From positions 1 through 64,000 of the forward strand of contig CALXKL010000003.1 in the NCBI GenBank assembly GCA_944388965.1: a stretch of DNA of 64,000 nt, in the 5' to 3' direction. Source of the stretch: an uncultured Spirochaetales bacterium (GTDB taxonomy: Bacteria; Spirochaetota; Spirochaetia; Sphaerochaetales; Sphaerochaetaceae). The translations under genes and the position numbers were made by a program. The notes below the pieces were generated by a model, which was not told where the DNA came from, made no database searches, and worked only from the letters and a program-made list of their open reading frames with translations. Position 1 is the stretch's first letter, and every line of letters begins with the position of its first letter. Of this stretch, positions 1-26,730 are shown piece after piece.

Positions 1-71
1 AAGTTTCTCCGACCAGTGAAGAAGTATCATCTATCGGAGCTATAGTTCAAACACTTATTCGCATTGCTTGA
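1..71 (+). CDS. Tail-fibre tip cassette P1 (partial, 3' end only)
   Basis: Frame starts at base 3; 22 codons then TGA at 69-71, ending LIRIA. All 71 bases are an inverted identical copy of 3118-3188, the end of cassette C8, and the identity runs to the window edge. Confidence 0.7.
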   Translation, partial: VSPTSEEVSSIGAIVQTLIRIA

Positions 72-320
72 GGCATTTCCGGCAGAACTGATTTCCGAGC
101 CATGCAAACTGATGTATATGGAAGTCTACCAATATTCACCAATACCAGCGGCCTAGTGAGGAAAAAGAATGAAAGTGAAACGGTCGGAGCATATCTGAGC
201 CCAACAGCAAACAGTGGTGCATACAGTAGGTTTTCCCTAGCTTCTTCATATGTTACACCTATCTCAGCGGAAAACTCTGTTGTTTCGGAGAGTCTTACAT
301 GTTTGTTGAGATTGTTATGA
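72..320 (+). CDS. Tail-fibre tip cassette P2 (82 aa, no own start)
   Basis: Opens GISGRTDFRAM and ends CLLRLL. Same length as C11 (2410-2658) and clearly homologous to it in both halves (MQxDVYGSL near the start, SSYVTP then SAENSVVSES near the end), so the two are diverged inverted copies. Confidence 0.75.
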   Translation, partial: GISGRTDFRAMQTDVYGSLPIFTNTSGLVRKKNESETVGAYLSPTANSGAYSRFSLASSYVTPISAENSVVSESLTCLLRLL

Positions 321-548
321 GGCATTAGAGACCAAATGGAAAACATAGCCGCTGCATGCAATCCTTATGATGCGCAAAATGGTATATTCAGGAGAATCGC
401 CTATACAGGGAGATGGGAGCTCAAATGGGGTGTGCCTAGTGGAGGTAGCGCATTCACCCTTATCATGAATTCCTCGTTAGTTGTCCCTCCCGCCACGGAG
501 GACAGGCCGATATCGCATTCAACGAGTTGTCTATTTAGAATCCGATGA
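321..548 (+). CDS. Tail-fibre tip cassette P3 (75 aa, no own start)
   Basis: Opens GIRDQMENIA, carries NSSLVVPPATEDRP and ends CLFRIR. The start differs from the usual GI(S/T)G. Confidence 0.7.
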   Translation, partial: GIRDQMENIAAACNPYDAQNGIFRRIAYTGRWELKWGVPSGGSAFTLIMNSSLVVPPATEDRPISHSTSCLFRIR

Positions 549-794
549 GGCATTAGCGGCAAAATTGGTAATAACGAGCCTTGGAGTAATAGAGGTTTTA
601 CTGGATATGGATGGAATACAGCTACGGGAGCATTTCCAGAACTTATCATTGGAGACATGGCTATAAAACTGGAACCGGGCAATGAGTATTTGTCATTGAC
701 CGCAATTCGATTTGACTCATCAGCCGTTGTTCCGATTTCACTTGAAAGCCATCCTTCTGCAATATCTGTTTGTAGCCTGATTCGTATCGCATGA
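549..794 (+). CDS. Tail-fibre tip cassette P4 (81 aa, no own start)
   Basis: Opens GISGKIGNNE, carries FDSSAVVPISLESHP and ends SLIRIA; one of the clearest examples of the shared C-terminal motif. Confidence 0.72.
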   Translation, partial: GISGKIGNNEPWSNRGFTGYGWNTATGAFPELIIGDMAIKLEPGNEYLSLTAIRFDSSAVVPISLESHPSAISVCSLIRIA

Positions 795-1004
795 GGCATT
801 AGCGGCCGTTTGGGAGGCGTTATTCTTTTCAAAACCGATAAGATTTTCAATCGCATATACCAAGTTATCGGTGGTTACCTATCTCCAAGTGGGGAGGGAT
901 ATGCCATCGACAACATGAAGATGGATATTGGGAAAAGTACTCCCACCGGAACTACGACAAGCCCATCATCGATATCGATGATGTCTCTGCTCCGGATAGC
1001 ATGA
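795..1004 (+). CDS. Tail-fibre tip cassette P5 (69 aa, no own start)
   Basis: Opens GISGRLGGVI and ends SLLRIA. The VP-x-x-x-E motif is weak here (STPTGTTTSP). Confidence 0.7.
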   Translation, partial: GISGRLGGVILFKTDKIFNRIYQVIGGYLSPSGEGYAIDNMKMDIGKSTPTGTTTSPSSISMMSLLRIA

Positions 1005-1262
1005 GGCATTACTGGAACCGTTCGAGTTAATAGCGGACATCAGTATTTTTATGCTATGGGAATTGGCTTCGGTAAAGACTCATACAGAGCTCTACACGCT
1101 TCACCTAAAGAAGGTAATCATATTGCCCCGAGAAGTGCTCCTAGCGAAGCAGCTAAAGATTCTACCGCCCAGTTTGAAGTAGACACCTCGTATGAGATTC
1201 CAGTTGCGATGGTGAACACACCAGTGGCCATGTCTGTATCTGTTCTGCTCAGAATATCCTGA
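1005..1262 (+). CDS. Tail-fibre tip cassette P6 (85 aa, no own start)
   Basis: Opens GITGTVRVNS, carries DTSYEIPVAMVNTP and ends VLLRIS. Last rightward cassette; its 3' end overlaps the 3' end of the leftward cassette C16 by 14 bases (1249-1262) and its TGA is not followed by GGCATT, so no standard site exists at this tail-to-tail junction. Confidence 0.7.
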   Translation, partial: GITGTVRVNSGHQYFYAMGIGFGKDSYRALHASPKEGNHIAPRSAPSEAAKDSTAQFEVDTSYEIPVAMVNTPVAMSVSVLLRIS

Positions 1263-1467
1263 GCAGACATTGCATAGTCTGATTGATAGAAGCAATCTCT
1301 TGGGCCAATGGAACTTTTGTTGATGTATCGTAATACCCCTTGTTTGCCTTGTATCCATTTATGTCCTTGGTAACTGCTATGATGTACGGCCATTGCTCAG
1401 TTTTATGCCAGAAAGGTTTTGTCGGAGACCATCCTGATAGAATGGGGCCAGGCGATCCGGAAATGCC
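1249..1467 (-). CDS. Tail-fibre tip cassette C16 (72 aa, no own start)
   Basis: Opens GISGSPGPILSG, collagen-like in its Gly spacing, carries DTSTKVPLAQEIA and ends CLLRIF. First of the 16 leftward cassettes counted from the junction; shares its stop region with P6. Confidence 0.7.
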   Translation of the reverse strand, partial: GISGSPGPILSGWSPTKPFWHKTEQWPYIIAVTKDINGYKANKGYYDTSTKVPLAQEIASINQTMQCLLRIF

Positions 1468-1707
1468 TCATCTCAGTCGCATCAGGCCAGCAATACTAGA
1501 AAAAGCGGGAGTCGAAACTTTTGCAGTAGGTACAGCTCTCGAGGAATTGAAATGTAGAACCGCCCTATTTATGACATAGGTGGTGGAACCCATTGAGACG
1601 TTCCATCTTCCATCTGTCGGATAGAATGGCCCTGTTCCTCTGCTGTCTACCATTTCATTCGATTTACCAGAAAAAATCATGACTTCTGTCTTATATCCTA
1701 TAATGCC
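1468..1707 (-). CDS. Tail-fibre tip cassette C15 (79 aa, no own start)
   Basis: Opens GIIGYKTEVM, carries FNSSRAVPTAKVSTP and ends LMRLR. The RAVPT block is the closest of all to the usual phage tail-fibre C-terminal consensus. Confidence 0.72.
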   Translation of the reverse strand, partial: GIIGYKTEVMIFSGKSNEMVDSRGTGPFYPTDGRWNVSMGSTTYVINRAVLHFNSSRAVPTAKVSTPAFSSIAGLMRLR

Positions 1708-1941
1708 TCATCGAATCCTGATAAGGCATATGAATGAAATGAATAATGGATGACTCTCATTAGACTCGGGAACCACGTTACCTGAGTCGAACTCAACGGC
1801 ACACCAGCCGCTTCCATTCGGGGCAGAACTGGATGAATAGCGGTCTGTCGCCTTGCCGGGTTGGAAAGCACCAAACAGACCAGTACGAACATAAGAGGAT
1901 CCTGAAAATGTTTCGTTCGGATTTAGCCTTCCTGAAATGCC
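1708..1941 (-). CDS. Tail-fibre tip cassette C14 (77 aa, no own start)
   Basis: Opens GISGRLNPNE, carries FDSGNVVPESNESHP and ends CLIRIR. Confidence 0.72.
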   Translation of the reverse strand, partial: GISGRLNPNETFSGSSYVRTGLFGAFQPGKATDRYSSSSAPNGSGWCAVEFDSGNVVPESNESHPLFISFICLIRIR

Positions 1942-2169
1942 TCAACCTATTCGTATGAGTTGTTTCACAGTCGCGTTGATTGAAACATTTTCTATCGCAA
2001 CTGGCAGGCTTCCAGAAGAGTCAAGGTATAGTCCATGCATAAGATACTTAAGCCCTCCATCACCAATATACGCATGGAAGTAATCAGCAGAGCCTGTTTT
2101 ATAAAATGCTCCAGCACCTCCAATAAAAGGGGAGTCGCATAGAAACTTTTTTACATTTCCGGTAATGCC
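1942..2169 (-). CDS. Tail-fibre tip cassette C13 (75 aa, no own start)
   Basis: Opens GITGNVKKFL, carries LDSSGSLPVAIENV and ends QLIRIG. Shares an IGDGGLKY-type block with C9 (IGDGSFKF), so these two are related. Confidence 0.7.
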   Translation of the reverse strand, partial: GITGNVKKFLCDSPFIGGAGAFYKTGSADYFHAYIGDGGLKYLMHGLYLDSSGSLPVAIENVSINATVKQLIRIG

Positions 2170-2409
2170 TCATGTAATTCTGAGTAGAGTGTTCATTATC
2201 ACCGCACCAGGGTTAGTTTCGTCTGCAATTGGAACAGTACGGCCTGAATCGATTCTCAGCTCTCCGAGCGATCCAGCGCCATCTGTGATATTGGCGCTGG
2301 AATATCTGATTTCAATTGGTCCATAGAAGACGCCAGTGAAATTTGTCATCAATGCCGTACCTCCATGATAATTGTTTTGTCCGTGTAAACCAACTTTTCC
2401 CCTAATGCC
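2170..2409 (-). CDS. Tail-fibre tip cassette C12 (79 aa, no own start)
   Basis: Opens GIRGKVGLHG, carries DSGRTVPIADETNP and ends TLLRIT. Confidence 0.7.
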   Translation of the reverse strand, partial: GIRGKVGLHGQNNYHGGTALMTNFTGVFYGPIEIRYSSANITDGAGSLGELRIDSGRTVPIADETNPGAVIMNTLLRIT

Positions 2410-2658
2410 TCATAACAATCTCAACAAACATGTAAGACTCTCCGAAACAACAGAGTTTTCCGCTGAGACAGGAGTGACATACGAAGATTCCATAGAAACC
2501 CTATTGGGTACGCCATCGTATCCTGATCTTGCTAAATATGATAACGATGTTTCTCCTGTCCCTTTTTGATCCAACATTCCGCGGGTCTCGATGAATATTG
2601 ATAGACTTCCATATACATCAGATTGCATGGCTCGGAAATCAATTCTGCCGGTAATGCC
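2410..2658 (-). CDS. Tail-fibre tip cassette C11 (82 aa, no own start)
   Basis: Opens GITGRIDFRAM and ends CLLRLL; inverted diverged copy of P2 (72-320), identical in length. Confidence 0.74.
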   Translation of the reverse strand, partial: GITGRIDFRAMQSDVYGSLSIFIETRGMLDQKGTGETSLSYLARSGYDGVPNRVSMESSYVTPVSAENSVVSESLTCLLRLL

Positions 2659-2889
2659 TCATCGAATTCGGAGAAGACATGTGGTGTTTATCATGACTGG
2701 ATGAGCCTCGGTGCTATCGGGAATTCTATAGCTGGAATTGAGATAGATGTTGGCCGTCCTGTTTGATTGGCTGATATTCGAACCTTTGCCTTCAGTGAGT
2801 ACCAGTTTGAATACGCCGCCAGCAGGCCGTATCGAGTTGACTGTGACAGCTCCATATGGGTCAGGTCCTGTTATCTGGCCTATAATGCC
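2659..2889 (-). CDS. Tail-fibre tip cassette C10 (76 aa, no own start)
   Basis: Opens GIIGQITGPD, carries NSSYRIPDSTEAHP and ends CLLRIR. Confidence 0.7.
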   Translation of the reverse strand, partial: GIIGQITGPDPYGAVTVNSIRPAGGVFKLVLTEGKGSNISQSNRTANIYLNSSYRIPDSTEAHPVMINTTCLLRIR

Positions 2890-3117
2890 TCATCGAATTC
2901 TTAGCAAAGTTTCTACCGAGATCAGTAATGGAAGATTTTCTGTCGTTATAGGTATGGATCCAGACGTATCAAATAGGACCTCTCGTGGAATAAATTTAAA
3001 TGAACCATCGCCTATGCCAGAGAAATAGCTTTTGAATGGGGCAGTTCTAAAGAACGCTCCTTCACCTCCTTCAAATGGCGACAAAAAAAGGGTTCCGTGA
3101 AGCAATCCCCTAATGCC
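2890..3117 (-). CDS. Tail-fibre tip cassette C9 (75 aa, no own start)
   Basis: Opens GIRGLLHGTL, carries FDTSGSIPITTENLP and ends TLLRIR. Confidence 0.72.
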   Translation of the reverse strand, partial: GIRGLLHGTLFLSPFEGGEGAFFRTAPFKSYFSGIGDGSFKFIPREVLFDTSGSIPITTENLPLLISVETLLRIR

Positions 3118-3339
3118 TCAAGCAATGCGAATAAGTGTTTGAACTATAGCTCCGATAGATGATACTTCTTCACTGGTCGGAGAAACTTTGGACGAGTTAA
3201 ATTTAAGCTTGACTCCATCATCTCTCCATGCACCGTCATTCCTTTTTGATTCTCCTAACGCAGTTGTCAATGCTCCTTCGTTTTTACTTCCAACGGAGTA
3301 CTCTCCATATAGAGAGAGTGTCGTGCTTCCTGAAATGCC
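3118..3339 (-). CDS. Tail-fibre tip cassette C8 (73 aa, no own start)
   Basis: Opens GISGSTTLSL, carries FNSSKVSPTSEEVS and ends TLIRIA. Its last 71 bases occur again, inverted and identical, at 1-71. Confidence 0.72.
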   Translation of the reverse strand, partial: GISGSTTLSLYGEYSVGSKNEGALTTALGESKRNDGAWRDDGVKLKFNSSKVSPTSEEVSSIGAIVQTLIRIA

Positions 3340-3570
3340 TCAAAGTACTCTGAGCAACCAGATAGTGCTGGCACCAAGAGGACTGTTCTCCGCACTTACT
3401 GGTACGACATTAGATGACGAGAATGCGATTCCTGTGTCATTGGAATTGTTGCCGTAGGCCAATCCGGCTCCGGATGATGTCACAGCAAAATTAGCAAAGG
3501 CTCCGCTGGGGGTGGAAATGATTGAGCCTCCAGTTTGAAGAGCCTTAAACTTAAGACTTCCTGTAATGCC
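3340..3570 (-). CDS. Tail-fibre tip cassette C7 (76 aa, no own start)
   Basis: Opens GITGSLKFKA, carries SSSNVVPVSAENSP and ends WLLRVL. Confidence 0.7.
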   Translation of the reverse strand, partial: GITGSLKFKALQTGGSIISTPSGAFANFAVTSSGAGLAYGNNSNDTGIAFSSSNVVPVSAENSPLGASTIWLLRVL

Positions 3571-3816
3571 TCATCGGATTCGGAGAAGACAATTTTGAAC
3601 ACTGGATATTGGCACTACTCCATCAGAAGACCTCGGATTCTCTTTCGTAGAGTTAAGCCGCATTCCTAAAAATACATATTCGCCTCCTGCTGGAGAAAAG
3701 ATTCCAAGATCAATAATGGCTGTATAGCTGTTCAAGACTGTCTTTAGCGGAATTACTCCAGAATACGACATTGCAAGGATATATCCAGCCCCTTTTGTTT
3801 CGCGACTGCTAATGCC
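3571..3816 (-). CDS. Tail-fibre tip cassette C6 (81 aa, no own start)
   Basis: Opens GISSRETKGAG, carries PRSSDGVVPISSVQ and ends CLLRIR. Confidence 0.7.
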   Translation of the reverse strand, partial: GISSRETKGAGYILAMSYSGVIPLKTVLNSYTAIIDLGIFSPAGGEYVFLGMRLNSTKENPRSSDGVVPISSVQNCLLRIR

Positions 3817-4056
3817 TCATGTAATTCGGAGCAAACATGTCATAGAAAAGTTCAGGGGATGGTTTGTCTTATCTATAGGTATCACAAGCCCGTTATCTAT
3901 TTTGAATCCGTTCGATTTCTGTTCTTTATCAGAAGATATTGATGCTGAAGGATAGACCTCATTGAAAGCAAGATTCTGAATGCATCCAGAGCCAGTATAG
4001 AAAGAAGGTGGCAAAGACATTAAATCATTCGATGTCTCATGTCGACCGCTAATGCC
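3817..4056 (-). CDS. Tail-fibre tip cassette C5 (79 aa, no own start)
   Basis: Opens GISGRHETSN, carries IDNGLVIPIDKTNHP and ends CLLRIT. Confidence 0.7.
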   Translation of the reverse strand, partial: GISGRHETSNDLMSLPPSFYTGSGCIQNLAFNEVYPSASISSDKEQKSNGFKIDNGLVIPIDKTNHPLNFSMTCLLRIT

Positions 4057-4260
4057 TCAACAAATTCGGATAAGAACCGACACGGACAAAGAGGCAGGCA
4101 ACATCTCATCAGTTGTCGGAACGGCTATGGGAGTTTTAATTTGCACAATACCAACGCCCAACCCGCCACCAGCTTGGACATTATGCTGGTAATATCCAAC
4201 CCTAACAATAGGACCACCAACCGGCAAAGAAACAACTCCACCAATTTGACCGCTAATGCC
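4057..4260 (-). CDS. Tail-fibre tip cassette C4 (67 aa, no own start)
   Basis: Opens GISGQIGGVV, carries IKTPIAVPTTDEMLP and ends VLIRIC. Shortest complete cassette. Confidence 0.7.
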   Translation of the reverse strand, partial: GISGQIGGVVSLPVGGPIVRVGYYQHNVQAGGGLGVGIVQIKTPIAVPTTDEMLPASLSVSVLIRIC

Positions 4261-4479
4261 TCACTTAATCCTAAGCAAACTTGCAACGCATACGGAAATT
4301 GGGGTGGATTCTTCCATCACAGGCGCGACATAAGAAGAGTCAAAATGGATGTCCCAGGAACCTAGCGCGTCGCCTCTTACAACATAGCCTTCCATCTTCC
4401 TTGAGCCTTGAAAAGGCCCCGAGCGCTCATCACTTGAATTAGCACCACCTAGTATGAAATCACACCATCCAGTAATGCC
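4261..4479 (-). CDS. Tail-fibre tip cassette C3 (72 aa, no own start)
   Basis: Opens GITGWCDFIL, carries FDSSYVAPVMEESTP and ends SLLRIK. Confidence 0.7.
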   Translation of the reverse strand, partial: GITGWCDFILGGANSSDERSGPFQGSRKMEGYVVRGDALGSWDIHFDSSYVAPVMEESTPISVCVASLLRIK

Positions 4480-4737
4480 TCATGCTATACGAATCATGCT
4501 TGTAAAGCCCGTTGAAATTGGAACAATCTCAGTATGAATCGGCACTACTAGGGAAATATCAAATGGTGCGCCAGCGGCAAATTTGAAGAAACTTCCGGCG
4601 GATAATTGGCTGTAGAAATCTTCTTCACCATGTGCTTCATATTTCGCAAAGGCTCCTGTCCCAGCTCCTCCGTTGTGCATTAATTCGTCACTACGAGAGA
4701 CCAAATTTATATTCGCCGGCAGGTTTCCTGTAATGCC
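4480..4737 (-). CDS. Tail-fibre tip cassette C2 (85 aa, no own start)
   Basis: Opens GITGNLPANI, carries FDISLVVPIHTEIVP and ends SMIRIA. Confidence 0.7.
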   Translation of the reverse strand, partial: GITGNLPANINLVSRSDELMHNGGAGTGAFAKYEAHGEEDFYSQLSAGSFFKFAAGAPFDISLVVPIHTEIVPISTGFTSMIRIA

Positions 4738-4944
4738 TCATGTTATGCGTAGGAGTACATGCATCGGAAGGGAAGCTGGCGCAGAATCATTCGAAGTTGG
4801 AACCATTCTGGATATGTCGAGCGCGGGAATAACAACACCAAGTCCACCTTGTGATTGGATCCACCAGTCTGCAGCAGTCTTCTTTGGTCTGAACAATTTA
4901 TCCACGCCGTAATTGATAACGGTGCCAACACTTCCTGAAATGCC
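4738..4944 (-). CDS. Tail-fibre tip cassette C1 (68 aa, no own start)
   Basis: Opens GISGSVGTVI, carries LDISRMVPTSNDSAP and ends VLLRIT. It begins directly after the recombinase stop codon and in the same frame as the recombinase. Confidence 0.7.
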   Translation of the reverse strand, partial: GISGSVGTVINYGVDKLFRPKKTAADWWIQSQGGLGVVIPALDISRMVPTSNDSAPASLPMHVLLRIT

Positions 4945-5706
4945 TCACCATGTGACGATTTTCGAAATTCTCCTACTAATGCCCTTGCTTGTCTTTCGTA
5001 GGTAACGGACCGTTGTCTTGATGTCCGCGTGACCCAACAGATCCTGTAGAAACTTGAGATCCTTGCATCGCTCATAGACATTCCTGGCATAGAAGGCACG
5101 GAATTCGTGTGGGTGCATGGGCGCCTTTGGAATGCCATATCGCTTCGCAAAAGCATGCAACCGTTTACGTATGACACCTTGATTGTAAGGCAGGATGAAT
5201 CCGTCCTCCTTATAGGTTGACAGCACTTCCTGTCTTAGTCGTGAGCCAAACCATATTCTTCTGAATTTCGTCCCTTTTCCACAAACATCAACATATCCTA
5301 CCCGCAGATCCTCCCTCTTGATCTGGAGAAATTCACTGATTCGGACGCCTGTGCAGGCAAGTATCTTGATTGCCGCCCACCACCTATATTCACCATCCTC
5401 CAGCAAACATCCGAGAAGCTTCTCATACTGACTCATCGTAAGCTGGCTCTCCACAAACTGTTGCTGTTGAACTTTTATCGGCTTGAGCCGCCATCGTGTC
5501 TTCGTGTATTCCGCATAGCGGTTGATGGCATGGATTCTGATGTTGACAGTCGCCGGCTTAACTCTTCGCATCTCGTTCTCTTTCCACTCGCATGCATCAG
5601 CGAAGGTCCACTTGTACTCCCTGAAGTAGTATTTCATCGACATCGCATAGCTCATCGCGGTCCCTGTAGCCAGCCCTTTCCTCTTCAACCATTTCTCGAA
5701 ATCCAT
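4945..5706 (-). CDS. Tyrosine recombinase adjacent to the cassette array
   Basis: A 253-residue site-specific recombinase of the phage-integrase (XerC/D-like) family. Visible catalytic positions are the first Arg in TGVRISEFLQ, a Lys in GKGTKFRRIW, the H-x-x-R box in HPHEFRAFYARN, the second His in LLGHADIKTT and the Tyr in TVRYLR. The N-terminal 90 residues look like a SAM-like DNA-binding core. ATG at 5706 is chosen because GGGG lies just upstream and because a longer frame would run through the divergent gene at 5761. The protein ends KIVTW and its TGA is the TGA of the last array site, so the gene behaves as if it were the outermost cassette. Position beside 21 sites, and a separate phage integrase at 29150, suggest it is dedicated to cassette shuffling. 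That role is inference. Confidence 0.85.
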   Translation of the reverse strand: MDFEKWLKRKGLATGTAMSYAMSMKYYFREYKWTFADACEWKENEMRRVKPATVNIRIHAINRYAEYTKTRWRLKPIKVQQQQFVESQLTMSQYEKLLGCLLEDGEYRWWAAIKILACTGVRISEFLQIKREDLRVGYVDVCGKGTKFRRIWFGSRLRQEVLSTYKEDGFILPYNQGVIRKRLHAFAKRYGIPKAPMHPHEFRAFYARNVYERCKDLKFLQDLLGHADIKTTVRYLRKTSKGISRRISKIVTW

Positions 5707-9107: not shown

Positions 9108-9681
9108 GTTTACCTACCACCTCCTGGCTCAGCCCTATGACCATGTATCGTAAAGGCAATGGCTGATGCCTGTTGTACAGGACAAGCGGCTTGCTCTTGT
9201 CATCCGGTATCCTGTATGTGTCGAATGGCTGGAACTTCTCCACCTGGCGGAATTCGTTCGGGTTATACGGCACACCCGTCTTAGCCGATATGTATGCACA
9301 TTCGGCTACCCAGAATGCATAGTCTTCATTCTTCGCACGGTAAACAGGATCGAAATCATTTCCGTCGGGCATGTCACATTTCGCGAACAGCAAATCACGC
9401 AATGTCCAGGGAGCCGCCCCGTATGCCTCATGATTGAACCGGTACAGCTGAAGAGGCTCGGGGCCGAGCAGGGCCTTCATCCGGCCATCCACATTGTAGT
9501 AGGCGGCATGATGTCCGTTCGTCGCCATCACCATGCTTCTGTCCGGGTTCCAGAGGATGTTTCTTATTTCCGGTACTTTGACGTTGTAGTCCTTTTCACG
9601 GCATTTCCATAGGAAATGGAAGACGTACTGATCCAGGCCCGTGCCGGGAATCCTTATCAACCGTTCATCTGATGATTTCAT
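9094..9681 (-). CDS. Phage early protein of unknown function
   Basis: 195 residues, not recognised. Residues 46-70 (RSMVMATNGHHAAYYN) recall the TDGHR segment of DNA sliding clamps, and the C-terminal LRYMVIGLS recalls a clamp C-terminal strand, but length is about half that of a bacterial beta clamp and the rest does not match. I keep it as unknown. Confidence 0.55.
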   Translation of the reverse strand: MKSSDERLIRIPGTGLDQYVFHFLWKCREKDYNVKVPEIRNILWNPDRSMVMATNGHHAAYYNVDGRMKALLGPEPLQLYRFNHEAYGAAPWTLRDLLFAKCDMPDGNDFDPVYRAKNEDYAFWVAECAYISAKTGVPYNPNEFRQVEKFQPFDTYRIPDDKSKPLVLYNRHQPLPLRYMVIGLSQEVVGKHETR

Positions 9682-9956
9682 TTCTTCCTCCTTATCGCCT
9701 TCTTCGGATTTGTGATGCTTAACTCATAGTTTTCTTCAAATCTCTCAATGGCTTGCTGGAGATCATCTCCGTACATGCCCGTCACCATTTCGCGCCAGAA
9801 CCGGCTACGGACTCGATTGAAGAGACGCCTGTCCACCCTGTCCACACGGTTCCAGTACCTGTTCCATTTCAAATAGTTAGCAAAGGTGAAATGTTTGTGG
9901 CTGTACGGCTCTCTCTTGTTGTCCTGACGCAAATTCCTATAAGTGATCTTGCTCAT
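9678..9956 (-). CDS. Basic phage protein of unknown function
   Basis: 92 residues, rich in Arg, Lys and aromatic residues (NYLKWNRYWNRVDRVDRRLF), suggesting nucleic-acid binding. 4-base overlaps on both sides place it firmly in the early operon. Confidence 0.5.
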   Translation of the reverse strand: MSKITYRNLRQDNKREPYSHKHFTFANYLKWNRYWNRVDRVDRRLFNRVRSRFWREMVTGMYGDDLQQAIERFEENYELSITNPKKAIRRKK

Positions 9957-13034: not shown

Positions 13035-13216
13035 ACGGCCTCCGTTTCTTTGATCGTCAGATTTCCAATGTCGTCTTCGTCCCATGATCCAGGACATGCA
13101 TGACCATTCCTGTTGCATATGGTATCCAGAAGACACGCCCCGCACTCTGTCGAGTTCTTGCATGTTTCCTTGATACGGCACAGCACATGCTTCATCTGGT
13201 CTATCGAGTTAATCAT
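13031..13216 (-). CDS. Small cysteine-rich phage protein
   Basis: 61 residues with C-x10-C-x2-C and further Cys (CGACLLDTICNRNGHAC). Third in a run of tiny Cys-rich proteins. Confidence 0.5.
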   Translation of the reverse strand: MINSIDQMKHVLCRIKETCKNSTECGACLLDTICNRNGHACPGSWDEDDIGNLTIKETEAV

Positions 13217-14228
13217 GAGTCCTCCTCGATTCTCTTTCTGATCCGATTCGGCACAGCGAAGTCCAGTCCGTCCTCATGGTTGCGCAGGTGATCCAGCCGT
13301 GCACTGATGTCATCTGACCAGCTCTGTTCGGCCCATGACATCTCGTCGAGTCCTCCACATTCGTCTATCAGGGCCTGAGCCTTCTCCAACGCCTCAGCCT
13401 TGGAACAAGCCATGACGTCGAACTCCACCTCTCCTTCCACCTTGTATGTGATGCAGAAATGTACCGGCTTTCTGTATACCCGCTTCTTCCTCTCCTTCTG
13501 TGAGTTCGGTACTACCTTTCCATCATCGAACAGCTCCATCTGTTCATCCTCCTTCCTGAATCTCTCCTCCAGATCGAATACCGACTTTCCATCCAGCCGG
13601 AACGGATATCCCGGCATCCTGTGCTGGAGGCCCTTCAACCATCCCCAGTATTTCGGCTGGTAGTGGTACATGTTCCTCAGCTCGCCCAGTCCGGTGTAAC
13701 GACAGCACCAGCAGGACACCCGACGATATATCGAGTACAGATCCACGCCATCCTCCTCCCAATAGATGCCGTGATCGTGGCAGTAGGCGAGACAGTCGGA
13801 CTCCGTCATGTTCCATTCGACGAGGGGATAGAGGTTGCCGTAATCCTTCATCCGGTGCGCCTCGTCCACCGCGATGCCTATGTACTGGACGCCCCCCCGA
13901 CTGATTTAAGGAACCGTCCGATCTCCTGCTGTTTGAAACGGGTGATCCAGCGGCATTTTCCTCCACACCAGCCATATCCGTACTTTCCGCTCCTCGTCGG
14001 ACGGGCCAGCATGTCCATCCACACGGAGTCTTTGTTCCTAAGCGTCGTGAACCGTATTCCGGCATCCTCCACGATGCGTCTGACCTTATCTACAACCGAA
14101 TAGACGGCACCGAATTCCAACTGGGTGTCGAAGAAGACGACATGATCCAGGGGCCGTCTTTCCTCCATTAGCCGGAGAACCATAGCAGTCGAGTCCTTGC
14201 CGCCGGAGAACGAGGCGATGTAGTTCAT
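13213..14228 (-). pseudogene. PAPS-reductase-like protein interrupted at a poly-C tract
   Basis: Two frames, 13878-14228 and 13213-13869, join into one protein of the phosphoadenosine-phosphosulfate reductase/ATP-pyrophosphatase fold. The first contains the P-loop SFSGGKDSTAMVLRL near residue 8 and WCGGKCRW; the second contains the downstream HRMKDYGNLYPLVEWN and CWCC motifs, then a C-terminal extension. The break is at seven C on the + strand (13892-13898). Eight or five would restore the frame. Related phage proteins occur near DNA-modification or queuosine-like genes, but the reaction here is unknown. Phase variation, decay or assembly error are all possible. Confidence 0.7.
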
Positions 14229-22059: not shown

Positions 22060-22473
22060 CTACTCCCTCCTGGAGTTCCACTTCGCCACGACATCCTCCT
22101 TCGAGGATCCCCTTATGGTGACCAGCACGTCCCCGCCACTCGCCAGGAGGTGCCAGACGCCCGAGGCCTCGTCCCTGAACACATCGGGCGTTCCGGCGCA
22201 GGCGGAGAACGGAGAGGGCAGCAGATCGTCGGAACGGACCCCATGGGCATCATCCCCTCCGTTGATGCATCTGGTGAGTCCGCCTTCCGGTCCCTTCGGG
22301 CCGAGGAACAGAGGCTGCCCACAGTCAGGACACTTCACGAATCTGATCGAATCGTCTCCATCCATCCTGCTGGGCATGTTCACGTCCAGATCGCAGAACT
22401 CGAACGCGCATCCGCAGCTCCAGCAGATGGTCTGCTCCGGTGCGACCTCCCCATGGATGAGAACCCTTCTCAT
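22060..22473 (-). CDS. Zinc-finger phage protein
   Basis: 137 residues from MRRVLIHGE. CWSCGCAFEFC and CPDCGQPLFLG form a zinc site; the C-terminal part (SKEDVVAKWNSR) matches the ending of small phage proteins annotated as restriction-alleviation Lar-like, which suggests but does not prove that role. Confidence 0.55.
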   Translation of the reverse strand: MRRVLIHGEVAPEQTICWSCGCAFEFCDLDVNMPSRMDGDDSIRFVKCPDCGQPLFLGPKGPEGGLTRCINGGDDAHGVRSDDLLPSPFSACAGTPDVFRDEASGVWHLLASGGDVLVTIRGSSKEDVVAKWNSRRE

Positions 22474-22739
22474 GAGACCGCCTCCAGTCTGCACGGGACA
22501 TCCGTCGACACCACGGACACGATGTGCTCCATCTTCACGACAAGGCTCCGGAATCTTCTTCCGAGGAACATCGCCTTCCTCAGGTGTACGACGAGCACTC
22601 CGTCGACGTCCCTCTCCAGCGAGTGGAAAACGCCGCAGATCCAGTGGCCGCAGTCGGTCTTCACGTCGAGCTCCATCCCCCGGAATATCCTCAGGATCCT
22701 TCCGTCGCCCGCCTTCACATCCATCGCACCTGTCCTCAT
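22470..22739 (-). CDS. Small phage protein of unknown function
   Basis: 89 residues from MRTGAMDVKAG. Beta-rich, similar in pattern to 22736. Function unknown. Confidence 0.45.
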   Translation of the reverse strand: MRTGAMDVKAGDGRILRIFRGMELDVKTDCGHWICGVFHSLERDVDGVLVVHLRKAMFLGRRFRSLVVKMEHIVSVVSTDVPCRLEAVS

Positions 22740-23113
22740 AGCTCCTCCCAGTCGTCCACGACGTATTCCATGCAGGAAGAGACACGCTTCATGGCAGGCA
22801 TTGCGCCAACCCTCACGACCGCCATCGAGGAGGCGATGCATGCCACGTCGTCGAGCCTGACCTCGTGATGCCTGCCACCGACCTCGAGCATGAACCTGAA
22901 GTCCATGACATCCGTCGAGACCAGGTCTCCCACCCTTCCCTTCACCGAAGACCCATCATTGAACCAGATCTCGTACATCCATCCGCGCAGAATCTCCATG
23001 TGGCGCTGCGCACCATCGGAGAGCACGAATCCGCACAGATCCAGCCCCAGGCCATGTCCGTCCATGCTCGACAGCCCCGCGGCTATCACCTGGGCGACTC
23101 CAATCTCAGCCAT
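22736..23113 (-). CDS. Small phage protein of unknown function
   Basis: 125 residues from MAEIGVAQV. Central beta-rich part (WFNDGSSVKGRVGDLVSTDV) with VRLDDVACI may be an Sm-like or SH3-like barrel; compare 17395. Confidence 0.45.
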   Translation of the reverse strand: MAEIGVAQVIAAGLSSMDGHGLGLDLCGFVLSDGAQRHMEILRGWMYEIWFNDGSSVKGRVGDLVSTDVMDFRFMLEVGGRHHEVRLDDVACIASSMAVVRVGAMPAMKRVSSCMEYVVDDWEEL

Positions 23114-23789
23114 CGCTTCTCCTCCTGTCCCGTCCCCGGAACATGATGCGGAACGAACCCTCCGCATCTCCCGTCATCCTCGAGTAGACAGCCTGTGGTA
23201 TCACCATCTGCACTCCGTCCGGAGTGCCGTTCGCGGCCCCCACGACCGGGAGCATGTGGGCGTGTCTCCACTCGATCAGCTCCACCAGGGCGGAGAACGA
23301 CGCCTCCGTGTCCCTCATCTTGTCCATCTCGTCGATCAGGAGCACATCGAGCGTCCTGCCCCACTCCGTCTCGATGAGCGCCTCCATAGTCAGCCCCCTC
23401 GTCGTCCTGAGCCTCGCCCACAGCCTGTCTATCAGCGGCTTGGCCATGACGTACCTGACGCTCATGTCCCTGCCTGCAAGCTCATGGAAGCAGGAGCAGA
23501 GGAAGAAGGTCTTGCCGACCCCCGTCTCGCCTATGACGAGTCCGCTGGCTCCCGCTATCACCTTCTGGGCCAGAGGCCGCCGTTCCTCGTAGAGCGTCGA
23601 CATCGACGCCTCCCTGTAGCGTTCCGGGATGTTCTCCTCGATCGTCTGCCTGATCCGTGCGGCCCTCTCCTCGACGGCCTTCCGGGCAAGCCTCTCCTTC
23701 TCGGCGTTCTCGAGGGCGATGGAATCCGCATCCGACATCGGGATGTAGCCCGGGAACATCTCCCTCATCCGCCTCTCGAATTCGTTCAT
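23106..23789 (-). CDS. DnaC/IstB-type helicase loader ATPase
   Basis: 227 residues from MNEFERRMREM. Walker A is GETGVGKTFF (about 83-92), Walker B is DVLLIDEMDKM (about 152-162), and the tail SRMTGDAEGSFRIMFRGRDRR contains the sensor arginines. Loads the replicative helicase at the phage origin. It directly follows, with a 4-base overlap, the replication initiator gene that holds the iterons, giving a complete initiator/loader module; no phage helicase or polymerase is present, so host enzymes are probably used. Confidence 0.8.
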   Translation of the reverse strand: MNEFERRMREMFPGYIPMSDADSIALENAEKERLARKAVEERAARIRQTIEENIPERYREASMSTLYEERRPLAQKVIAGASGLVIGETGVGKTFFLCSCFHELAGRDMSVRYVMAKPLIDRLWARLRTTRGLTMEALIETEWGRTLDVLLIDEMDKMRDTEASFSALVELIEWRHAHMLPVVGAANGTPDGVQMVIPQAVYSRMTGDAEGSFRIMFRGRDRRRSDG

Positions 23790-24673
23790 GCCATCTCCTC
23801 CCACTCGTCGCCTCTGTACCGTCCCGTGTAGTCCTGTGCCGAATGCCTCGTCCTGCCGGCAGTCGCATTGCAGTATCGTCCCTCCAGGACCTTCTGCATG
23901 TTGTCCTTGTCGACGAGCCAGTCGAACCCGCAGCCCTTCCAGGCTCCGGACCGTCCGGAGAGGAAGTCGCTCTCCTCGGCCATCCGGAACGCCTCGAACA
24001 TCCTCTCTCCATGGGCCTTCCAGCAGGCCTCGACCAGTGCTGTCCGCTTCATGGTCAGCCCCTGGCATTTCGGCATGGAGGTGCAGATCTCCCCGTATGC
24101 CTTGACGATCCGCTCGAAGGGCGTCTCGGCTACCTTTTCTGATGGAATCTTCAGATTCCAGTCTTTTGGATCTTCTTGAGGGGGTGCAGGGGGAGCTTCT
24201 TCTTGCGGAACCGAGGCGGAACCCGAGAGGAACATCGCCGGAACCGAATCGGAACCGAGACGGAACCGAGACGGAACGGAATCGCCTTCCAGTTCCGCCG
24301 ATTTCACGGCCTGTCGAGACTTGCGAAGCCCTCTTGAAGTTATCCGCCCTGCAAGCTCCCTCGCCTTCGGGGAATACTCCCTGCCCTCCTCGTTGATGGC
24401 GAGCCAGCCCGCCTCCTCCAGCTGTTCGACGACGTTTCTGACGACGTCCTCCCGCTCGTCTATGGCAAGCGCCACGTCCGAGGCGAAGTCCGTGTCACTG
24501 AAGTCGTGCTCGATGACGAAGCCGTCGCCCTCGAGGGCAAGCATAAGGATCTTGAGGGCTGCGATGACGCAGGCGTCCCCACGACGCGACCGGCGGAGCC
24601 TCCTCATCACCTTCGATGAGAGGAGGTCGTCGTCGAGCCTCAGGAAGCGGAAGGTCCTCTCCCTCCGTGCCAT
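23786..24673 (-). CDS. Phage replication initiator / replisome organiser
   Basis: 295 residues. The N-terminal domain (about 1-115) matches the winged-helix replisome-organiser domain (LRLDDDLLSSKVMRRLRR, GDACVIAALKILMLALEGDG). A low-complexity linker (about 125-165, repeated SDSVP / SASVP) is coded by seven 11-bp DNA iterons. The C-terminal domain (about 175-295) is DnaD-like with GRSGAWKGCGFDWLVDKDNM. Binds the origin and recruits the loader encoded next. Confidence 0.75.
   Translation of the reverse strand: MARRERTFRFLRLDDDLLSSKVMRRLRRSRRGDACVIAALKILMLALEGDGFVIEHDFSDTDFASDVALAIDEREDVVRNVVEQLEEAGWLAINEEGREYSPKARELAGRITSRGLRKSRQAVKSAELEGDSVPSRFRLGSDSVPAMFLSGSASVPQEEAPPAPPQEDPKDWNLKIPSEKVAETPFERIVKAYGEICTSMPKCQGLTMKRTALVEACWKAHGERMFEAFRMAEESDFLSGRSGAWKGCGFDWLVDKDNMQKVLEGRYCNATAGRTRHSAQDYTGRYRGDEWEEMA
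24206..24282. repeat. Seven 11-bp iterons, probable phage replication origin
   Basis: Seven units in perfect 11-bp phase, consensus CGGAACCGAGA: starts at 24206, 24217, 24228, 24239, 24250, 24261 and 24272. Units 5 and 6 are identical; unit 3 is the most diverged. Eleven is not a multiple of three, so the repeat is conserved as DNA rather than protein. Position inside the initiator gene parallels the lambda O arrangement. Confidence 0.65.
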
Positions 24674-25925: not shown

Positions 25926-26070
25926 GAGACCTCCATCATGTTGTGAAATCTTAATTTAGATTTACCTTTCTTCTTTTCTGTTGTCAAGTAGAAAATTGTT
26001 AAATCTTAATTTATTTTTCTGAAAACTTAATTTTGTTGCTAAAATCAGAACTTCGGATTACAATGTGCCT
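25926..26070. promoter_or_regulatory. cro/cI switch region with CTTAATTT operators
   Basis: A/T-rich divergent intergenic region. AAATCTTAATTTAGATTT at 25946-25963 is a near-perfect 18-bp palindrome; related half-conserved copies are AAATCTTAATTTATTTTT at 26001-26018 and AAAACTTAATTTTG at about 26022-26035. They share CTTAATTT and are likely repressor operators. The rightward promoter is TTGCTA (26036-26041), 17 bases, TACAAT (26059-26064). Confidence 0.6.
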
Positions 26071-26730
26071 ATGAGAGAAAAAGTTTCCGGAAGGTTGAAA
26101 CATGCCTTGAAGTTAAGGAATATGACTCAAACTGAGTTGTGTGCACAAACCAACCTTGAAAAAAGCGCTGTTAGTTCATATGTCTCTGGTAGATACGAGC
26201 CAAAGAGCAAAGCTGTCATGGTCATGGCTAAAGCTCTCAATGTTTCGGCAGCATGGTTAGCTGGATTTGACGTCCCCATGGAAGAGGAGAACGCAAAGGT
26301 CTTTAAGCCATCCTCCTGGTCCTTCGAGATCCCCTTTATAAGTCAAAAGCTCTCGGCTGGTCCTGGCAAGGACTGGATCTCAGACGAGGACCTTGAAATC
26401 AAGACGATCAACCTTGCAGACGACCTCCCCAAAGGCGTGGATCCATCTACTCTGGTATGTGCTGAGGTTCAAGGTGATTCCATGGAGGGAGCTCACCTGT
26501 ATTCCGGCGATGTAGTCATATTCTCCAAGGGATTCATATCAGGTGACGGGATATATGTCCTTGCCCTTTGTGGTGACGTCCTCGTCAAGAGACTCCAGTA
26601 TGCTCCATGGGAGAACAAGGTATACATAATCAGCGAGAACCAGAAGTACCCTACCCAGTCCGTCGAGGCCGACAACGAGAACCTCGTCGTGCTTGGCAAG
26701 GTCCTGAAATGGTTCCACTTCGAACATTGA
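26071..26730 (+). CDS. CI/LexA-type phage repressor
   Basis: 219 residues from ATG at 26071 (an in-frame GTG lies two codons earlier). N-terminal Xre helix-turn-helix (MTQTELCAQTNLEKSAVSSY), linker, then an S24 autoprotease domain with Ser in VQGDSMEGA (about 134-142) and Lys in GDVLVKRLQYA (about 168-178). Maintains lysogeny and is probably cleaved on RecA activation. The predicted transcript begins at the ATG itself, with no ribosome site, as in lambda cI from PRM. Confidence 0.85.
   Translation: MREKVSGRLKHALKLRNMTQTELCAQTNLEKSAVSSYVSGRYEPKSKAVMVMAKALNVSAAWLAGFDVPMEEENAKVFKPSSWSFEIPFISQKLSAGPGKDWISDEDLEIKTINLADDLPKGVDPSTLVCAEVQGDSMEGAHLYSGDVVIFSKGFISGDGIYVLALCGDVLVKRLQYAPWENKVYIISENQKYPTQSVEADNENLVVLGKVLKWFHFEH

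Follow-up and report, generated by a model that had tools for sequence, protein, structure and literature searches.

How does a prophage in an uncultured spirochaete come to carry 21 short reading frames side by side, each opening at the same short sequence, next to a gene for a tyrosine recombinase? The array lies at the left end of the window, by which we mean the whole 64,000-nucleotide stretch analyzed here (bases 1-64000 of contig C3 of an uncultured Spirochaetales assembly, GCA_944388965.1, of 17 contigs and 2.1 Mb). Our analysis indicates that this locus is very probably a shufflon that stores the variable half of a phage receptor-binding (tail-collar) gene. An earlier reading made from the letters of the sequence (hereafter the original prediction) had proposed a recombining reservoir of tail-fibre tips, an interpretation that the evidence below supports overall.

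An array of 21 tip cassettes with one shared site

The array comprises 21 complete, stop-free, in-frame cassettes of 67-85 amino acids (aa) between window positions 72 and 4944 (Table 1). Five lie on the forward strand (72-1262) and 16 on the reverse strand (1249-4944), where a shufflon calls for at least three C-terminal cassettes with short repeats in both orientations. The cassettes tile the DNA without spacers, and the TGA ending one cassette belongs to the site of the next. All 21 start with GI-x-G and end with L-(L/I)-R-(I/L), within a C-terminal motif approximating (D/N)SS-x-VVP-x3-E-x2-P-x3-S-x3-LLRI, and their middles are barely alignable (median identity 24%). These counts confirm what the original prediction had described, namely 21 sites and 21 in-frame cassettes of 67-85 codons with a shared start, a shared C-terminal motif, variable middles and two orientations. 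It had further counted a partial cassette at the left edge to reach 22; that total is corrected to 21, the fragment being a 77-bp assembly-graph overlap of cassette 3118-3339. No family match was found for single cassettes in Pfam or PHROG.

In the paralogous cassettes 72-320 and 2410-2658, variation is packed into the middle of the tip. Their first ~65 bases are ~95% alike and 67 of the last ~80 are identical, as are about half of the ~100 bases in between.

Each cassette opens at TGAGGCATT(A/T). The motif TGAGGCATTW occurs 21 times between 69 and 4947 (5 forward, 16 reverse) and nowhere else in the window, against 0.24 occurrences expected from dinucleotide shuffles. Only two further matches turned up elsewhere in the 2.1-Mb genome and were set aside as chance, one of them lying inside an apparent translation-factor coding sequence. 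Written out as a recombinase substrate, the array site is TGAGGCATTA. Its codons are the same in every cassette, the stop being TGA, the glycine GGC and the isoleucine ATT in 21/21 cases each. Elsewhere in the same cassettes, GGC encodes 36 of 163 glycines (22%) and ATT 48 of 118 isoleucines (41%), and the codons flanking the site (LLRI, xxG) vary at third positions. The fixed use of GGC and ATT, compared with the rest of the cassettes, shows that the site is conserved as DNA, beyond the level of the protein.

A constant tail-collar gene runs into one cassette

The original prediction had called beforehand for a constant tail-fibre gene ending at such a site. Using the tail-collar protein of a related genome (G005, described below) as query, we found a single homologue in the window's own genome (G000), 67% identical and located at the very start of contig C5 (G000:C5:70-648). 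The gene encodes 193 aa and matches Pfam Collar (PF07484) above the curated cut-off. It reads ...YKGQLDAQR-GIRGLLHGTLFLSPFEGGEGAFFRT up to the contig end, the stretch preceding the cassette start being …CACAAAGAGGCATT, and its frame passes AGAGGCATT into cassette 2890-3117. The resulting in-frame fusion joins ...QLDAQR to GIRGLLHG... across AGAGGCATTA. The predicted gene is thus present, as a tail-collar gene, and it stands at the shared site as the constant gene of a shufflon does. Its site reads AGA-GGC-ATT (Arg-Gly-Ile), compared with TGA-GGC-ATT (stop-Gly-Ile) in the cassettes, so that every product would have both an open junction and a stop. No close relatives of the constant gene were found in IMG/VR, and none among named phages.

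A tail operon on C5 leads into the constant gene and ends with it. The rest of that contig carries tail, protease, portal and terminase genes, and the window side holds a repressor and an integrase; C5 and the window contig are two halves of one prophage. The integrase is distinct from the recombinase at the array, as had been proposed, with a pairwise match between the two confined to the catalytic end.

Alternative junctions at a single site

Base 1 of contig C3 falls in the middle of the array. When the terminal 400 bases of all contigs were compared, every best end overlap was exactly 77 bases, pointing to a de Bruijn assembler with k=77; most contig ends of the assembly show such an overlap. 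Window positions 1-77 are the exact reverse complement of 3112-3188, and C5:1-77 is identical over 77 bases to window 3043-3119. Given these overlaps, the partial cassette at the left edge is the end of cassette 3118-3339 in a second context. Site 3111-3120 forms a branch point in both directions. Ahead of cassette 2890-3117 stands the constant gene in C5 but cassette 3118-3339 in C3; after cassette 3118-3339 comes 2890-3117 at C3:3111 but 72-320 at C3:69.

The three junctions (constant gene to 2890-3117, 3118-3339 to 2890-3117, and 3118-3339 to 72-320) correspond to three of the four products that a single inversion would give if its ends were site 3111-3120 and the site of the constant gene. 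Positions 3112-3119 are exactly what the two 77-mers have in common, which places the exchange within GAGGCATT. Judging from contig ends rather than read counts, alternative junctions of the kind that the original prediction expected therefore appear to exist in the sample. Together with a split insertion sequence in G005, these junctions at one site are indirect evidence that rearrangement occurs.

A recombinase related to restriction-specificity inverters

The original prediction had also placed a tyrosine recombinase beside the array, and its Pfam match, to the phage-integrase fold, agrees (Table 1). The enzyme has no arm-binding domain. Its residues R122, K144, H200, R203, H226 and Y235 (R-K-H-R-H-Y) are invariant in all nine aligned members of its clade, and its stop codon is the TGA of the last array site. 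No NCBIfam model reached its own cut-off. The spirochaete enzymes, which are 52-100% identical, group together in our tree as a ten-member clade with support 100/99, beside hsdS-linked enzymes. These neighbours include a group annotated PsrA, the PsrA type being sister of the spirochaete clade. Identity to annotated PsrA is 32%, within a range of 32-39% for PsrA/hsdS-type relatives, and all relatives with tail-collar arrays fall in a clade separate from the PsrA/hsdS enzymes (100/99). Most relatives at 36-39% identity in genomes, where classifiable, adjoin hsdS and have no long arrays; among the relatives of the recombinase, long arrays are confined to spirochaete loci. The recombinase had no close relatives in IMG/VR, and no Bifidobacterium record stood among the matches listed in the recombinase search.

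We infer that the window recombinase catalyses cassette exchange. Its group serves both restriction-specificity switching and tail-tip switching, and appears to have passed between these two uses.

Proposed mechanism

We propose that the constant gene stays open at GAGGCATT (AGA-GGC-ATT), with translation running on into whichever cassette is joined to it, and that each supplied tip brings its own stop (TGA-GGC-ATT). The joined cassette alone would be in the frame of the tail operon, and the other 20, which have no start of their own, would be silent stores. The recombinase adjoining the array would carry out the exchange inside the 8-base core. The tail protein would gain a new tip when the constant gene's site recombines by inversion with an oppositely oriented cassette site, and inversions among cassettes would reorder the store. 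Cassettes oriented like the current tip would first have to be turned by another inversion, or could be reached by deleting those in between. The C-terminal position of the tips on a tail-collar protein, as in known phage systems, suggests that they bind receptors; switching tips would probably alter host range. In an Enterobacter phage, one of three tail-fibre isoforms has been tied to a receptor (PMC13418256).

Related loci

Relatives with the same system, holding up to 12 cassettes, occur in the same bacterial family. Those that are complete or nearly so are listed in Table 1; the complete ones have a recombinase, silent cassettes and a full-length, expressed fibre, and in every relative a dedicated tyrosine recombinase abuts the array. 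The core varies between loci (GAGGCATT, GAGACATT, GGGACATT, GGAACATT) but not inside a locus, as a need for identical cores in the exchange would predict.

The metagenome-assembled genome G005 (CALXOK010000001.1, uncultured Spirochaetales, same genus) has a recombinase 78% identical to that of the window, a similar array with the site TGAGACATTA and a tail-collar gene that ends ...KLDAQRDI at AGAGACATT. In this genome, the IS1595-type transposase gene of an insertion sequence (IS) is split exactly at GAGACATT, its second half following the constant gene and its first half preceding a cassette. Rejoined, the halves give one frame of 374 aa. The split has the form of a recombination event at a chance copy of the core, TGAGACATT, inside the transposase gene, and the constant gene, fused to the IS, is presumably broken. 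The split element lies at ~22444-24505 (+ coordinates) of the joined stretch L029+L030 (G005:C1).

The window's genome holds a second, paralogous system (L031, G000:C13:1-1580) with a 75% identical recombinase, a cassette at 20-223 and the site GGGACATTAC. Its contig likewise starts inside the array, and the constant gene of this paralogous system was not found. Inside the shufflon of relative L046, a gene at 9282-9857 resembles the neighbour of the recombinase on G000:C13 and possibly encodes a tail-fibre assembly factor; given its position, it would invert along with the cassettes. In L034 (G030:C13:13549-15652), a 39% identical recombinase adjoins several gp53-like tail-fibre C-terminal cassettes, suggesting a further switch of tail tips, in this case drawn from another family. 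A more distant recombinase relative, in G059, has hsdS targets. The recombinase at L252 (G109:C118) belongs to the tail-tip clade, but the 2 kb downstream of it, up to the contig end, showed no cassette. L017 (G015:C19:11489-12097) is a truncated recombinase homologue with two in-frame TGA codons and no array, a decayed remnant.

Elsewhere in the prophage, a gene resembling phosphoadenosine phosphosulfate reductase occupies two adjacent frames on the reverse strand (13213-13869 and 13878-14228, within 13213-14228) and is split or frameshifted.

Table 1. Features of the window and related loci.
Feature	Position	Strand	Remarks
Partial copy (3' end of cassette 3118-3339), no cassette of its own	1-71	+	ends at site 69-78; exact 77-bp identity
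Cassette, 82 aa	72-320	+	site 69-78; paralogue of 2410-2658
Cassette, 75 aa	321-548	+	site 318-327
Cassette, 81 aa	549-794	+	site 546-555
Cassette, 69 aa	795-1004	+	site 792-801
Cassette, 85 aa	1005-1262	+	site 1002-1011; end overlaps convergent cassette 1249-1467
Cassette, 72 aa	1249-1467	-	site 1461-1470
Cassette, 79 aa	1468-1707	-	site 1701-1710
Cassette, 77 aa	1708-1941	-	site 1935-1944; low-confidence fold model
Cassette, 75 aa	1942-2169	-	site 2163-2172
Cassette, 79 aa	2170-2409	-	site 2403-2412
Cassette, 82 aa	2410-2658	-	site 2652-2661; paralogue of 72-320, near-identical ends, diverged middle
Cassette, 76 aa	2659-2889	-	site 2883-2892
Cassette, 75 aa	2890-3117	-	site 3111-3120; fused in frame to tail-collar gene on C5
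8-bp core GAGGCATT	3112-3119	-	mapped exchange region, common to all three observed junctions
Cassette, 73 aa	3118-3339	-	site 3333-3342; 3' end joined to both 2890-3117 and 72-320
Cassette, 76 aa	3340-3570	-	site 3564-3573
Cassette, 81 aa	3571-3816	-	site 3810-3819
Cassette, 79 aa	3817-4056	-	site 4050-4059
Cassette, 67 aa	4057-4260	-	site 4254-4263
Cassette, 72 aa	4261-4479	-	site 4473-4482
Cassette, 85 aa	4480-4737	-	site 4731-4740
Cassette, 68 aa	4738-4944	-	site 4938-4947; TGA of site is the recombinase stop codon
Tyrosine recombinase, 253 aa, XerD-like size	4945-5706	-	PF00589 E 9e-19
CI-like prophage repressor	26065-26730	+	PHROG E 4e-44
Prophage's own integrase, 428 aa	29150-30436	+	PHROG integrase E 6e-74
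Relative G072:C31 (= L046)			~790-aa constant fibre bearing one tip; 6 silent tips
Relative G110:C76			7 silent tips
Relative G082:C35 (= L047)			9 silent tips
Relative G075:C53			6 silent tips
Relative G005			12 cassettes, one broken by IS

Alternative explanations

An extension of the shufflon, possible but rather unlikely in our view, is that recombination between direct repeats also releases cassettes as circles, which can re-enter at any core. The array would then be an integron-like bank in which tips are gained, lost and traded between phages. The order in G005 (constant gene, second IS half, cassettes, first IS half, old tip) fits excision of a circle and its reintegration via the core in the IS. 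Two successive inversions would produce the same order, and both routes need exchange at TGAGACATT.

Instead of ongoing inversion, the two 77-bp overlaps might represent a pair of duplicated cassettes in a single fixed genome, or else two strains mixed in the sample; we consider this improbable. Any repeat of 77 bases or more makes a de Bruijn graph branch. Several observations weigh against the shufflon here. The fourth junction of the inversion, from the constant gene to 72-320, is absent from the assembly, from which the junction states are drawn. A duplicated cassette pair in one genome could also give branch points, needing two precisely placed duplications. Structure prediction for the tips, which the original prediction suggested, also counts against the shufflon: AlphaFold models were of low confidence, with a pLDDT (predicted local distance difference test) of 68 for a lone cassette and 57 for collar plus cassette, and the tip models had no match in the PDB at E <= 0.001. 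Matches in a viral structure library were non-significant only; several were to tail-collar or tail-fibre proteins, and we did not use them as proof. However, both branch points fall at one site, and what they delimit is exactly the 8-bp core. A single inversion accounts for all three junctions, whereas duplication requires two separate copies in swapped order, and if two strains differed by this inversion, the system would still have produced the difference.

Silent cassettes in spirochaetes are also known from antigen loci such as vls of Borrelia and tprK of Treponema, where they feed gene conversion. Conversion of silent cassettes by homologous recombination is a quite improbable account of the present array. 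The pair 72-320 and 2410-2658, with near-identical ends and a diverged middle, could stem from homologous exchange, but the alternative junctions have just 8 bp in common, the cassettes are ~24% identical and lie in both orientations, every relative has a dedicated tyrosine recombinase at its array, and the IS in G005 is split exactly at the 8-bp core.

Marginally less probable still is a static, decayed or dead array, that is, paralogous tips gathered in a defective prophage in which recombination has ceased. The host is uncultured and represented by assembly data only, and some relatives are decaying (the recombinase frame with stops in G015:C19, the constant gene broken by IS fusion in G005). 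Against this, all 21 frames are open with identical sites, the catalytic residues of the recombinase are intact and alternative junctions occur within one assembly. In several relatives, too, a contig end lies at the array or the recombinase, or inside one of them.

A diversity-generating retroelement acting on the tips can practically be dismissed: the tip proteins of phages are frequent targets of such elements in prophages of the gut and of spirochaetes, including those of E. lenta, but the locus lacks a reverse transcriptase with a template repeat, the genome's sole reverse transcriptase match is on contig C12, outside the prophage as assembled, and the cassettes differ throughout and in length rather than at the adenines of one template. 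That reverse transcriptase (G000:C12:43427-44050, PF00078 E 1e-41) is a lone gene near the end of its contig.

Comparison with known inversion systems

Among described systems, the closest in layout is Rin of bifidophages, reported as the first phage-encoded tyrosine invertase, which shuffles five C-termini of a receptor-binding protein (RBP) (Mavrich et al. 2018, PMC6109161); a Rin-like layout has also been described for Eggerthella lenta prophages (PMC8778435). Like the Rin shufflon of Bifidobacterium dnaJ2 prophages, the present system is prophage-borne, has an armless tyrosine recombinase distinct from the integrase and located at one array end, and combines a constant RBP N-terminus with dissimilar C-terminal cassettes and a short asymmetric crossover site, 11 bp in Rin (PMC6109161). 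By described layout, the window thus shares with Rin its prophage location, its recombinase type and its RBP C-terminal cassettes. The two differ in number (five possible full-length RBPs in Rin, 21 tips here), in site (TTCCCTAACCC in Rin) and in RBP type (TP901-1/1358-like in Rin, tail collar here). Unlike in Rin, every cassette in the window array has its stop codon overlapped by the site, as does the recombinase.

PsrA-type tyrosine invertases, which shuffle type I restriction hsdS genes in S. pneumoniae (PMC7096588, PMC4948785), are the nearest recombinase relatives by sequence (32%, sister groups in the tree) and of the same size; an aligned hsdS-linked relative shares the IVTW ending of the window recombinase. 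Their targets are two or three hsdS genes with 15-bp repeats, in contrast to 21 phage tail tips and a 10-bp site, and no hsdS lies beside the window array, where the targets are tail tips.

The R64/ColIb shufflon of IncI plasmids, which the original prediction had invoked through its recombinase Rci, likewise has multiple C-terminal adhesive tip cassettes, a recombinase gene at the array end and short asymmetric repeats, but it has four segments and seven tips and serves a pilus rather than a phage tail. The window recombinase is not Rci-like: it shows no significant similarity to Rci (384 aa; BLASTP E 7.9), which sits on a long separate branch of the tree, and it is instead sister of the PsrA-type hsdS inverters. 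The haloarchaeal virus phiCh1 reportedly has a single invertible segment. Inversion in this tailed virus alters structural protein expression (Roessler et al. 2004, cited in PMC8371274). In the classical phage tail switches, Min (p15B), Gin (Mu) and Cin (P1), inversion also switches the C-terminus of a tail fibre, but by serine recombinases (PMC6109161). The original prediction had named serine recombinases as the usual enzymes of phage tail-fibre inversion; tyrosine recombinases were already known from phage tails through Rin (PMC6109161). The sole serine recombinase match in the window's genome is on contig C7, with none in the shufflon prophage.

The class is therefore already known, following the Rin principle, here with an unusually large array. 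The locus differs in its site and in the type of tail protein, its recombinase belongs to a separate group, and it holds four times as many tips. Our literature searches, partial in coverage, found no larger phage tail array, and we do not claim the largest known; they also found no report of inversion in a spirochaete phage, nor any earlier report of such a phage system in the host phylum. The locus extends phage receptor-binding diversification by a tyrosine recombinase to 21 tips, compared with about five in the best-described phage case. It is also a warning that phage genomes assembled from short reads break or collapse at loci of this type. As the core differs between loci and is uniform within each, the family constitutes a natural test of how far such recombinases tolerate change in the exchange region, and its simple 10-bp sites provide a set for inversion tools.

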